64,000 nucleotides of DNA, taken from positions 280,427 through 344,426 of the forward strand of contig NZ_WKJI01000004.1 of NCBI RefSeq assembly GCF_009674685.1. The letters are read 5' to 3'. This DNA is from Pedobacter puniceum. GTDB taxonomy: Bacteria; Bacteroidota; Bacteroidia; Sphingobacteriales; Sphingobacteriaceae. Shown in pieces: positions 9,828 to 12,441 of this stretch. Every line of letters begins with the position of its first letter. Within the stretch, counting starts at the first letter, position 1. A model generated the notes under the pieces. It worked only from the letters and a program-made list of their open reading frames with translations. It was not told the DNA's origin and searched no databases. Made by a program: the position numbers and the translations under genes.

Positions 9828-11915
9828 GTGGCTACTATCAACAGAGATTCGCACAAGATTATTTACAGGAAATATGCCTATGCCCTTAAATATGTTTTAA
9901 TGGTGCTTAGCATCCTGTTTATCACTGCTATACTACCCAAACAAGCTAGATTCAAATATGAATTTGAAAAGGGTATAGTTTGGATGCATGATGATTTAAT
10001 ATCGCCCTATAATTTTGCTATTAGAAAAACTACACAAGAAATAAAATCTGATAAAGACAATATTTTAAAGTCTATTTTACCTGTTTACCGTTTAGATGAA
10101 AAAGTTTTAGAAGTTCAATTAAGTGAGTATCAGGCAGATTTTGAAGCCAAATGGCGTTCGGCAGGATTACCCGATGATGATTACAAAGAAAGAACTTTTG
10201 AATTTGGTTTCGAGCTCTTAAAAAACATCTATCAAAAAGGTGTTATTGGGTTAAATAAGAATTATCAGAAAGAAAAGGATAATGCTAATTATTTAATCAT
10301 GTTGTTGAAAAACAACGTGAAAACAGAGGTAAGTACAGCAACTTTATTAACTACAACATCGGCCTTTTCTTTGGCAAGCGAGCGTGTAGTAGAAAATAAA
10401 AAAGTGAGGACTGATATTTTGGTAAATGTTCTTAAAGATAGAATAACGCCCAATATTTTATTAGACGAACGCTTTACAGAAAGCTTACAAAAGCAAGCTA
10501 TAGAAAATGTTTCCTCTACAAGAGGTATGGTGCAAAAGGGTGAGGTCATTATTGAAAATGGTTCTACCATTAATGATGAAGTTTATCAAAAGCTAGAATC
10601 TTTACGTTTGGCTTATGAAGAGAATGCTCGTGTTACCGGAGATAGAAATTTGGTGCTTTTAGGGCAGTTTTTGCTAGTTGCGCTTATTGTTTCTTTATTG
10701 ATGGTTTTTCTTTACCTATTTAGAAAAGATATTTTTCAGGATAACAGGCAGATCTCGCTTATTTTAATGGTTGTAACAGGTATGCTGGTATTTCTTTCTT
10801 GGTCTATCCGGATGAAGTTGCCGAGTTTGTATTACATTCCTTATTGCATAGTACCTATCATCATCAGGATATTATTTGATACTCGTTTAGCTATGAATAT
10901 CCATTTATTAGTGGTATTGATAGCAAGTTTTTTTGTGCCAAATAGTTTCGAGTTTGCCTTCTTGCAAATTTCTGCAGGTATGGTTTCTATTTATAGTATT
11001 AAAAATCTGGTACGTAGAGAGCAGTTTTTAATTAGTGCTTTATTGATATTACTTACCTATTTTATTTCTTATTTAGGAATCTCGCTAATAAGAGAAGGGG
11101 CTTTAGCATCTGTAGAATGGCTCAAATTCTTACCATTTATTTTTAGTGTATTACTTTCTTTATTGGCTTATCCTTTAATTTATTTGTTCGAGAAGATGTT
11201 TGGCATCACCTCAGACATTACTTTAATGGAGCTAACCAATACCAACTCTACTTTATTAAGAGAACTCGCCTATAAGGTTCCTGGTACCTTTCAGCACTCG
11301 TTACAGGTAGCTAACTTGGCAGAATCGGCCATTTTTAAAATAGGAGGGAATGCGCTGCTAGTGAGAGCTGGAGCACTTTATCATGATATTGGCAAGATGG
11401 AAAACCCACAGTTTTTTATTGAGAACCAGAATAAAGGTTTAAATCCGCATGATAAATTACCCTATGAGGAAAGTGCCCAAATTATCATCAGACATGTGGT
11501 AAATGGTGTAGAGCTTGCTCGTAGACATAATTTACCTGAAGTGATTATAGATTTCATCAGGACGCATCATGGAAACACTAGGGTGGATTATTTTTACCAG
11601 TCGTTCTTGAAAAATTTCCCAGAGAAAATTGTTGATGAGAATACTTTCCGCTACCCGGGGCCAATTCCGTTTAGTAAAGAAACTGCGGTATTAATGTTAG
11701 CAGATTCTGTTGAAGCAGCTTCTAGAAGCTTAAAAGAACCCGATGCAGAAAACATTAATAACCTAGTTGAGCGTATTATTGATTATAAATTGGAGCAAAA
11801 TCAATTAAATGATAGTAATATTACATTGAAAGAAATTGAGACTATCAAGCTGATTTTCAAAACAATGCTAATGGGTATCTACCATGTTAGGATAGATTAC
11901 CCACAACAGAATTAA
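9828..11915 (+). CDS. 7TM-HD family membrane phosphohydrolase (PgpH-like)
   Basis: 695 residues. An N-terminal membrane anchor (about 20-40) is followed by an extracytoplasmic 7TMR-HDED-type region, a block of about seven membrane segments (roughly 280-460), and a cytoplasmic HD domain with HDIGK, then HH and HGNT motifs. Proteins of this architecture (Listeria PgpH) hydrolyse cyclic di-AMP; that activity is inferred from the family. The start is GTG at 9828, just after a TATTTTTG promoter box. It ends shortly before the tRNA-like remnant. Confidence 0.9.
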   Translation: MATINRDSHKIIYRKYAYALKYVLMVLSILFITAILPKQARFKYEFEKGIVWMHDDLISPYNFAIRKTTQEIKSDKDNILKSILPVYRLDEKVLEVQLSEYQADFEAKWRSAGLPDDDYKERTFEFGFELLKNIYQKGVIGLNKNYQKEKDNANYLIMLLKNNVKTEVSTATLLTTTSAFSLASERVVENKKVRTDILVNVLKDRITPNILLDERFTESLQKQAIENVSSTRGMVQKGEVIIENGSTINDEVYQKLESLRLAYEENARVTGDRNLVLLGQFLLVALIVSLLMVFLYLFRKDIFQDNRQISLILMVVTGMLVFLSWSIRMKLPSLYYIPYCIVPIIIRILFDTRLAMNIHLLVVLIASFFVPNSFEFAFLQISAGMVSIYSIKNLVRREQFLISALLILLTYFISYLGISLIREGALASVEWLKFLPFIFSVLLSLLAYPLIYLFEKMFGITSDITLMELTNTNSTLLRELAYKVPGTFQHSLQVANLAESAIFKIGGNALLVRAGALYHDIGKMENPQFFIENQNKGLNPHDKLPYEESAQIIIRHVVNGVELARRHNLPEVIIDFIRTHHGNTRVDYFYQSFLKNFPEKIVDENTFRYPGPIPFSKETAVLMLADSVEAASRSLKEPDAENINNLVERIIDYKLEQNQLNDSNITLKEIETIKLIFKTMLMGIYHVRIDYPQQN

Positions 11916-11923
11916 AATTTCTT

Positions 11924-11953
11924 TTTGTAGATATATTGGGATTGTTATATTTG
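11924..11953 (+). promoter_or_regulatory. putative promoter ahead of the tRNA-Ser remnant
   Basis: TTTG at 11924-11927 and TATATTTG at 11946-11953 with 18 bases between them, close to the Bacteroidota TTTG-N19-TAnnTTTG arrangement. It lies 16 bases upstream of the tRNA-like 5' end, where a tRNA promoter should be. It probably was, and may still be, the promoter of the tRNA-Ser locus. Confidence 0.55.
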
Positions 11954-11982
11954 CAGACCCATAAGGGAAGGAGAGGTGCCTG

Positions 11983-12004
11983 TCCCGAAGGGATTCCCTC
12001 GGAA
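11983..12004. repeat. hairpin-pair insert 1 (D loop of tRNA relic)
   Basis: 22-base insert made of two tiny hairpins back to back: TCCC-GAA-GGGA and TTCC-CTC-GGAA. It is absent from the intact tRNA. It matches the later insert in design and largely in sequence. Confidence 0.8.
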
Positions 12005-12026
12005 AGAGGCCGAAATGAACAGTTTG

Positions 12027-12070
12027 TCCCAAAGGGACTCCTTCGAATTCCCAAAGGGACTCCTTCGGAG
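12027..12070. repeat. hairpin-pair insert 2, two tandem units (anticodon of tRNA relic)
   Basis: 44-base insert holding two tandem copies of the same double-hairpin design: TCCC-AAA-GGGA then CTCC-TTC-GA, followed by TTCCC-AAA-GGGA then CTCC-TTC-GGAG. It interrupts the tRNA relic after the first anticodon base. Confidence 0.8.
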
Positions 12071-12093
12071 CTAAACTAAAATTGTGATAAGAT

Positions 12094-12336
12094 ATGTATA
12101 TCACTTACATTTTAAAATCTATTAAAGACGGTAGATATTATTATGGTAGTTGTGGAGATATGGACAAAAGATTAACTATGCACAATAGTGGCAAAGTCAA
12201 GTCTACAAAGAGCAGAACACCATTTGTACTCATCTATAAAGAAGAATACGAAACGAGGTCAGAAGCTCAAAAAAGAGGGTATTATTTTAAATCAATAGAT
12301 GGTTACATTTGGTTGAAACAAAATAATATCATTTAA
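12094..12336 (+). CDS. small GIY-YIG nuclease domain protein
   Basis: 80-residue single-domain GIY-YIG protein of the UPF0213/YhbQ-like type. It begins YITYILKS and the YYYG of RYYYGSC supplies the YIG-like half; downstream are RLTMHNSG with the conserved Arg, and a Glu within RSEAQKR. The ORF lies exactly between a truncated copy of tRNA-Ser (ends 12077) and the intact tRNA-Ser (starts 12344). This suggests the gene is, or was, part of a tiny mobile unit that targeted the tRNA. Family members are DNA-cleaving in other contexts; activity here is inferred. Confidence 0.88.
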   Translation: MYITYILKSIKDGRYYYGSCGDMDKRLTMHNSGKVKSTKSRTPFVLIYKEEYETRSEAQKRGYYFKSIDGYIWLKQNNII

Positions 12337-12343
12337 TAAAAAC

Positions 12344-12430
12344 GGAGAGGTGCCTGAGAGGCCGAAAGGAACAGTTTGCTAAACTGTCGTACTGGAAACG
12401 GTACCGCGGGTTCGAATCCCGCTCTCTCCG
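12344..12430 (+). tRNA. tRNA-Ser (anticodon GCT)
   Basis: 87-nt class II tRNA. Acceptor stem GGAGAGG/TCTCTCC with discriminator G. Anticodon stem ACAGT/ACTGT with loop TTGCTAA, anticodon GCT at 12378-12380, reading AGC/AGT. Long variable arm, and T arm GCGGG-TTCGAAT-CCCGC. CCA is not encoded. The gene starts 7 bases after the stop codon of the GIY-YIG gene. Confidence 0.97.
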
Positions 12431-12441
12431 CGAACTACAAG

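Follow-up and report, generated by a model that had tools for sequence, protein, structure and literature searches.

Previous work has described several endonuclease genes that settle at the genes they exploit. Phage SegB is a GIY-YIG homing endonuclease whose free-standing gene is enriched near tRNA genes (within 1000 bp); these belong to many isotypes, with no preference among them, and the accessible text of that report shows it to drive tandem amplification of the tRNA-segB segment (PMC13096335, Nat Commun 2026). In fungal mitochondria, mORFs replace the ends of genes (atp6 in Allomyces; atp6, atp9, cox2 and nad3 in Glomus): according to the available portion of the source, an endonuclease ORF is inserted together with a copy of the gene end and the native end is left behind as a relic, the targets being C-terminal ends of mitochondrial protein genes and the enzymes mostly LAGLIDADG, with a GIY-YIG enzyme in Glomus atp9 (PMC3630166). 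The rRNA insertion sequences of CPR bacteria carry homing genes, mainly LAGLIDADG, and the accessible sections of that study judge the GIY-YIG genes found there to be sparse and outside homing (PMC11270868). A paper on the GIY-YIG superfamily names tRNA three times in its accessible text, in other contexts (PMC1564403).

Here, we analyse a 64-kb stretch of Pedobacter puniceum (hereafter the window; its genome is labelled G000 in comparisons), in which a small GIY-YIG gene lies between a broken and an intact copy of tRNA-Ser(GCT). This unit of relic, ORF and rebuilt tRNA probably belongs to a family of homing-type endonuclease genes that is widespread and whose members are minimal, free-standing and specific for tRNA genes. 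Like segB, the family adjoins tRNA genes. It differs from the phage-borne SegB, for which the accessible text describes no partial tRNA copy that rebuilds the target, and its clades track isotype where SegB is reported to have no isotype preference (PMC13096335); the two are likened by features, not by descent. The window has the arrangement of an mORF, with the ORF separating the rebuilt gene from the native piece that was displaced, but here the targets are bacterial tRNA genes, many in number and rebuilt on the 5’ or the 3’ side. With the CPR rRNA insertions, as far as the available sections describe them, the family has in common that homing-endonuclease-type genes parasitize bacterial structural RNA genes. 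It resembles UPF0213 proteins (1zg2, 1ywl) in consisting of a single small GIY-YIG domain, whereas the two Bacillota neighbourhoods that we inspected are protein operons and not tRNA genes. Among the literature matches listed, a scope outside which preprints and most subscription papers fall, we found no description of GIY-YIG genes that rebuild bacterial tRNA genes.

A partial tRNA duplication around a GIY-YIG gene

The first-pass annotation of this DNA had claimed that nucleotides 1–42 of tRNA-Ser(GCT) are present twice, with the first copy broken. Both copies were recovered (Table 1), the relic agreeing with the intact tRNA at 41 of 42 bases and reaching an alignment score of 52.7, where 1000 shuffled versions of the upstream region gave at most 29.6. 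This identity holds with both inserts set aside, namely the 22-nt and 43-nt double-hairpin stretches that split the relic and on which the annotation was silent. Its description of the gap also agrees with the coordinates: 266 bp separate the end of the relic from the intact tRNA, they hold one 80-residue GIY-YIG protein, and the stop codon of this ORF lies 7 bases ahead of the tRNA. From the start of the relic the distance to the intact tRNA is 374 bp, with one plus-strand ORF of at least 50 aa inside. No second match above 75% identity to tRNA-Ser(GCT) was found in the window genome, so the gene presumably had to remain functional. We take the upstream HD-domain gene to be pgpH from its sequence features, and TAnnTTTGC, present at this locus as TATATTTGC, to be a promoter motif of the Bacteroidota type.

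Table 1. Parts of the tRNA-Ser(GCT) locus, in window coordinates
Feature	Position	Strand	Remarks
pgpH-like HD-domain gene	9828..11915	+	ORF; conserved on the upstream side of the tRNA; marks the flank, outside the element
TATATTTGC motif, putative original tRNA promoter	11946..11954	+	Single TAnnTTTGC match at the locus
tRNA-Ser(GCT) 5’ relic, nt 1-42, in three pieces	11970..12077	+	41/42 bases as in intact tRNA
Relic pieces	11970-11982 (nt 1-13); 12005-12026 (nt 14-35); 12071-12077 (nt 36-42)		
Double-hairpin insert, 22 nt, in relic D arm	11983..12004	+	
Two tandem double-hairpin units, 43-nt insert, at relic anticodon	12027..12069	+	
80-aa GIY-YIG ORF, stop TAA	12094..12336	+	ORF list, Pfam
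Intact rebuilt tRNA-Ser(GCT)	12344..12431	+	

tRNA genes are classic targets of integrative elements and introns, and the locus could be a remnant of one of these. The anatomy already contradicts such an origin, to which we give next to no credence: 374 bp are too short for an integrase gene and hold no ORF of that size, units of both polarities are found in the family (see below), the tRNA is uninterrupted, and no group I intron was among five Rfam matches (E up to 1).

Occupied and empty orthologous sites

A DNA search of 41 genomes gave a match in 40, and the 20 pgpH-tRNA-Ser(GCT) loci that it returned were read. The end of pgpH precedes the tRNA in all 20, and the GIY-YIG gene is absent from 16 and present in four: G000, G011, G013 and G002, the last with a broken ORF and a relic whose score (21) does not reach the shuffle maximum (28). 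The site thus has orthologous alleles with and without the gene, a mark of free-standing homing genes. In G009, a close genome whose site is empty, the upstream flank meets the tRNA where the flank of G000, G011 and G013 meets the relic, and this is the boundary that the first-pass annotation had expected empty sites in relatives to display. It had also placed the old promoter upstream of the relic. TAnnTTTGC occurs exactly once in each of the 20 loci, 23–127 bp from the tRNA in the 16 empty loci and 278–398 bp from it in the four occupied ones, where it stands ahead of the relic as proposed. Since the relic retains the upstream flank and the promoter motif, it is the old 5’ part of the gene, and the intact 5’ part is the addition. 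The earlier proposal that an element entered the tRNA and supplied a new 5’ part is thus upheld by flank and motif as far as the 5’ part goes, and its homing step is a matter of interpretation.

A pgpH tree of 16 genomes nests the empty G009 among occupied genomes (98/96 and 99/98), so that precise loss at G009, with vertical descent, is possible as well as gain. At third codon positions, G000 and G013 agree at 77 of 81 sites of the element ORF and at 280 of 366 sites of pgpH (Fisher p = 5e-5); the excess is weak between G000 and G011 (66/81 and 253/366, p = 0.03), and by eye there is no clear excess between G011 and G013 (76.5% and 71.9%). As the excess identity of the ORF is clear only in the first pair, the comparison supports exchange of the element for G000–G013 only, and precise loss is likely to have occurred too.

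Two more tRNA genes are occupied in G013. At tRNA-Ser(GGA), a second element (56% identical) has relic pieces spanning nt 1 to 74; this locus was matched in G000 (aligned in full), G009 and G011 without the ORF, and no GIY-YIG profile match was found at it in these three genomes. At tRNA-Arg(CCT), which is uninterrupted in G000, G009 and G011, inspection by eye shows broken tRNA copies flanking the intact tRNA and the ORF of a third element, with a duplicated stretch that runs past the tRNA by about 40 bp. Identity between G000 and G013 is 99% downstream of this tRNA and 92% upstream of it; together with the repeat beyond the tRNA, these values suggest that G000 may represent the state after a clean loss.

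Other features of these genomes were recorded. Beyond tRNA-Arg(CCT), the 99% identity of G000 and G013 extends over 1.4 kb (L348 1501-2928 against L043 1-1428), a stretch in which G009 and G011 carry different DNA and which we would read as a recent exchange or as an island whose edge is the tRNA. In G011 (L349 638-844) and G009 (L350 918-1124), the strand opposite tRNA-Arg(CCT) carries another, weaker GIY-YIG gene; it is apparently of an ordinary kind, untied to tRNA relics. Two weak GIY-YIG relatives occur elsewhere in the window genome, one 266 bp past tRNA-Leu(GAG) with no called relic (L026, G000:C1:500712-500891) and one with no tRNA in range (L025, G000:C5:148718-148921). At another locus, L089 (1459-1840), large palindromes appear by eye to interrupt both tRNA-Arg(CCT) copies flanking the ORF, and this locus may have no working tRNA-Arg(CCT) copy of its own.

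A widespread family on the tRNA strand

Within the genus, 13 of 18 genomes contain homologs of the protein (E up to 1e-8); within the family the figure is 99 of 399 (E up to 1e-6), and across the phylum a 21-row profile matched 248 of 395 genomes and 125 of 171 genera (E up to 1e-8). These counts refer to protein matches and not to tRNA units. A scan of genome contigs, from which 80 of 127 relatives were kept, pointed to Pedobacter, Mucilaginibacter, Niabella, Litoribacter, Ignavibacteria, Chlorobi and Patescibacteria, among others. We read 256 loci, a subset of all matches, every one of which matched the profile; dropping 33 at more than 90% identity left 223 non-redundant loci.

A tRNA gene lies within 300 bp on the same strand at 184 of the 223 loci and on the opposite strand at none. 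Significant partial copies of the adjacent tRNA were called across the ORF at 148 loci (own genome 1/3, genus 11/16, family 59/72, phylum 47/67, genome contigs 30/65); a further 36 have a tRNA for which no copy was called, and the remaining 39 lack any tRNA in range. Seven of these 39 were inspected by eye, six of them containing tRNA pieces with no intact gene called; many of the others belong to Patescibacteria. In control loci both features are far rarer. A tRNA within 300 bp on either strand was present at 3 of 30 cold-shock-protein loci of the phylum, one of these three (L304) itself adjoining a GIY-YIG match, and the relic caller was positive at 8 of 55 control flanks, four of them from the L005 cluster, which contains several copies of the same tRNAs. 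The first-pass annotation had asked whether such genes lie beside partial tRNA copies more often than chance, and these comparisons show that they do. Matches to phage records (12 of 50,697) and plasmid records (5 of 72,556; both E up to 0.01) are all below 60% identity, and phages and plasmids were dropped as candidate carriers of the element; one phage relative sits between protein genes.

Both orientations of the unit are common. The order relic, ORF, intact tRNA, with the 5’ side rebuilt as in the window, occurs at 62 of the 148 loci, and its mirror image, with the 3’ side rebuilt, at 86. Rebuilding of the 5’ part and a 42-nt relic, both put forward from the window alone, describe that locus correctly; the family restores 3’ ends as well, and its relics are often longer than 42 nt. 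In both polarities the ORF is on the tRNA strand, which would fit a shared transcript. Where the tRNA starts within the ORF, the stop codon is often the TAG of tRNA nt 8–10, as at 14 of the 79 loci whose tRNA lies downstream. First alignments for Arg(CCT) and Leu(TAA) had suggested a sharp insertion point at tRNA nt 45–48; this candidate was rejected once ORF ends were included in the alignment, which spread the junctions over most of the tRNA.

Target choice follows the protein phylogeny

The copies match their own neighbours: the adjacent tRNA outscores all other isotypes at 136 of 145 loci, and another isotype scores higher at nine; labels such as Tyr(ata) (L121) or Gln(ttg) (L111) might be Val copies read wrongly. 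Called copies carry 28 tRNA labels, a few of them possibly misread, two unassigned labels and, once, tmRNA. On a tree of 209 proteins (83 columns; 116 of 206 inner branches drawn open), isotype requires 39 changes over 169 labelled rows, whereas 100 shuffles average 112 and never fall below 106; polarity requires 27 over 138 rows, where shuffling gives 44 (minimum 38). The starred clades are mainly Ser (joined by a few Glu and tmRNA), Val, Met, Leu(TAA) with Gly, Leu(CAG/GAG/CAA) and one Arg(CCT) group. Judged from this tree, the choice of target passes down with the protein, and polarity does so less strictly.

Three loci adjoin tmRNA. L137 has a 3’ tmRNA relic, with the break in its T loop, and L108 and L110 have none; with a relic at L137 only, tmRNA was rejected as a general target.

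A single-domain protein under purifying selection

The window ORF matches Pfam GIY-YIG (PF01541) at 48.1 bits against a curated cut-off of 22.6 (E = 1.4e-12), and this is the only Pfam domain in the protein; the median ORF length in the family is 81 aa. Characterised GIY-YIG homing enzymes typically have a DNA-binding region beside the catalytic domain, whereas the window protein shows no such separate region. Its nearest solved sequences are the UPF0213 proteins 1zg2 (E = 1.1e-13) and 1ywl (2e-12), followed by SLX1. A PADLOC search returned no match, and PHROG gave only weak matches to homing endonucleases, with no match for the window protein.

Residues Y5, Y16, G18, R26, H30, E62 and K66 are nearly invariant across the family. 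The window protein retains six of these and has Gly at position 62, where the 223 loci have Glu in 212, a gap in eight, Asp in one, Ser in one and Gly in the window only. We take Glu62 to be the catalytic Glu of GIY-YIG nucleases, and its replacement suggests that the window copy is probably catalytically dead. The ratio dN/dS ranges from 0.03 to 0.65 in the 28 pairs that yielded one, 11 of 39 pairs being saturated. It is 0.03–0.65 in 15 Pedobacter-type Ser(GGA) pairs (0.03–0.09 in the nine with dS above 0.5), and 0.04–0.24 in nine Arg(CCT) pairs. A single Met pair gave 0.09, and the trio that includes the window gave 0.06, 0.44 and 0.08. These values point to purifying selection on the pairs that could be scored.

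Isotype fidelity could also mark a protein that acts on the tRNA of its isotype, with the relic or the extra copy serving as decoy or antidote in the manner of an addiction module. The inferred shared transcript and the retention of relics at many loci would suit such a unit. Against it stand the nearest solved relatives, UPF0213 and the DNA enzyme SLX1, the PADLOC result, and relics that are broken and vary widely in extent; GIY-YIG enzymes, to our knowledge, all act on DNA. We consider action at the RNA level very improbable.

Tandem arrays and a proposed homing-type mechanism

At least two profile matches cluster in 65 of the 223 loci and at least three in 15, a count in which a broken ORF can score twice. 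Thirteen array loci were dissected. A tRNA-Leu(TAA) array has eight units of 397–399 bp that are 97.7–99.7% alike, each followed by a relic; arrays at tRNA-Met (six units, 363–364 bp) and tRNA-Asp (five units, 315 bp) likewise have a relic after every unit, and one at tRNA-Leu(CAG) has a relic after five of its six 450-bp units. In the remaining arrays the units are 89.6–100% alike where comparable, except at L140 (57%, irregular).

Arrays of almost identical units would also be expected of an ordinary repair gene carried passively by tandem duplication and recombination at tRNA repeats, with no cutting involved, and the repeat at tRNA-Arg(CCT) of G013, which by eye takes in about 40 bp past the tRNA, and the Bacillota relatives in a protein operon fit that account. 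It is distinctly unlikely given the presence and absence of the gene at orthologous sites of three tRNAs, the spread over about 28 tRNA labels, the neighbours (184 on the same strand and none on the opposite one) and the clades faithful to isotype. The homing-type reading is favoured by the occupied and empty orthologs at these three tRNA sites, by the strand bias and the 148 partial copies, by own-isotype copies and an isotype that tracks protein phylogeny, and by the low dN/dS, the excess ORF identity of G000–G013 and the near-identical arrays of ORF plus relic. Duplication anatomy, empty sites, isotype fidelity, purifying selection and arrays are direct observations. Several findings weigh against this reading: the 80-aa protein lacks a separate DNA-binding domain; the rebuilt tRNA resembles the intact target; junctions are scattered over the tRNA with no single insertion point; excess ORF identity is clear in one pair only, and the empty G009 is nested; and a tRNA in range is missing at 39 of the 223 loci, while phage and plasmid relatives are all below 60% identity.

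Under the homing-type reading, a single-domain GIY-YIG nuclease would cut the unoccupied gene of one tRNA isotype, and repair from an occupied copy would install the ORF together with an extra piece of tRNA. The anatomy shows one tRNA copy left intact, downstream of the ORF in the 5’ type and upstream in the 3’ type, and the other decaying to a relic. Strand bias and promoter position suggest that ORF and tRNA share one transcript from the tRNA’s own promoter. Recombination between the flanking tRNA copies may then delete the ORF cleanly or amplify it, a possible route to the arrays seen. The window copy would be a member of the family that has probably lost catalysis.

If this is correct, tRNA genes across many Bacteroidota have been entered by a selfish gene of one of the smallest kinds, and the host is spared because a working copy of the essential gene stays behind. 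This would account for the tRNA fragments and GIY-YIG arrays of these genomes, provide a natural series of nucleases of about 80 aa with many tRNA-gene specificities, and make target finding by a lone GIY-YIG domain testable.

Double-hairpin inserts in the relics

The inserts of the window relic are double-hairpin units of about 21 bp. A pattern allowing up to three mismatches matches three times in the 64-kb window, each time in the relic, against 0.03 expected, and a looser pattern with no mismatches matches twice in the whole window genome, both times in the relic. Relics of the family are often broken in this way: across 85 of them we found 108 inserts of 12–70 nt, of which 73 measure 19–22 nt; some of those at the short end may reflect natural variation of the arms. 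Inserts recur near canonical nt 11, 21, 26 and 34, and the T loop accounts for 20, placed 18 nt before the 3’ end. By eye, their stems vary between copies with pairing preserved.

It is doubtful, but conceivable, that these nucleases form a phylum-wide selfish class of single-domain enzymes that draw their specificity from the tRNA fold, recognizing cloverleaf-forming DNA of one isotype as a cruciform or single strand in the manner of SLX1, a structure-specific relative, and that the relic with its loop-placed double hairpins is kept to block self-cutting and self-excision. Mitochondrial double-hairpin elements look similar in the accessible part of their description (PMC2800124), and by this analogy the inserts of about 21 bp may be a bacterial counterpart. 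They are rare, with 17 exact-pattern matches in 18 genomes of the genus. By eye, double hairpins occupy the loops of tRNA relics and, elsewhere, the loops of another hairpin repeat (L242, L243, L247, L248, L250 and L251).
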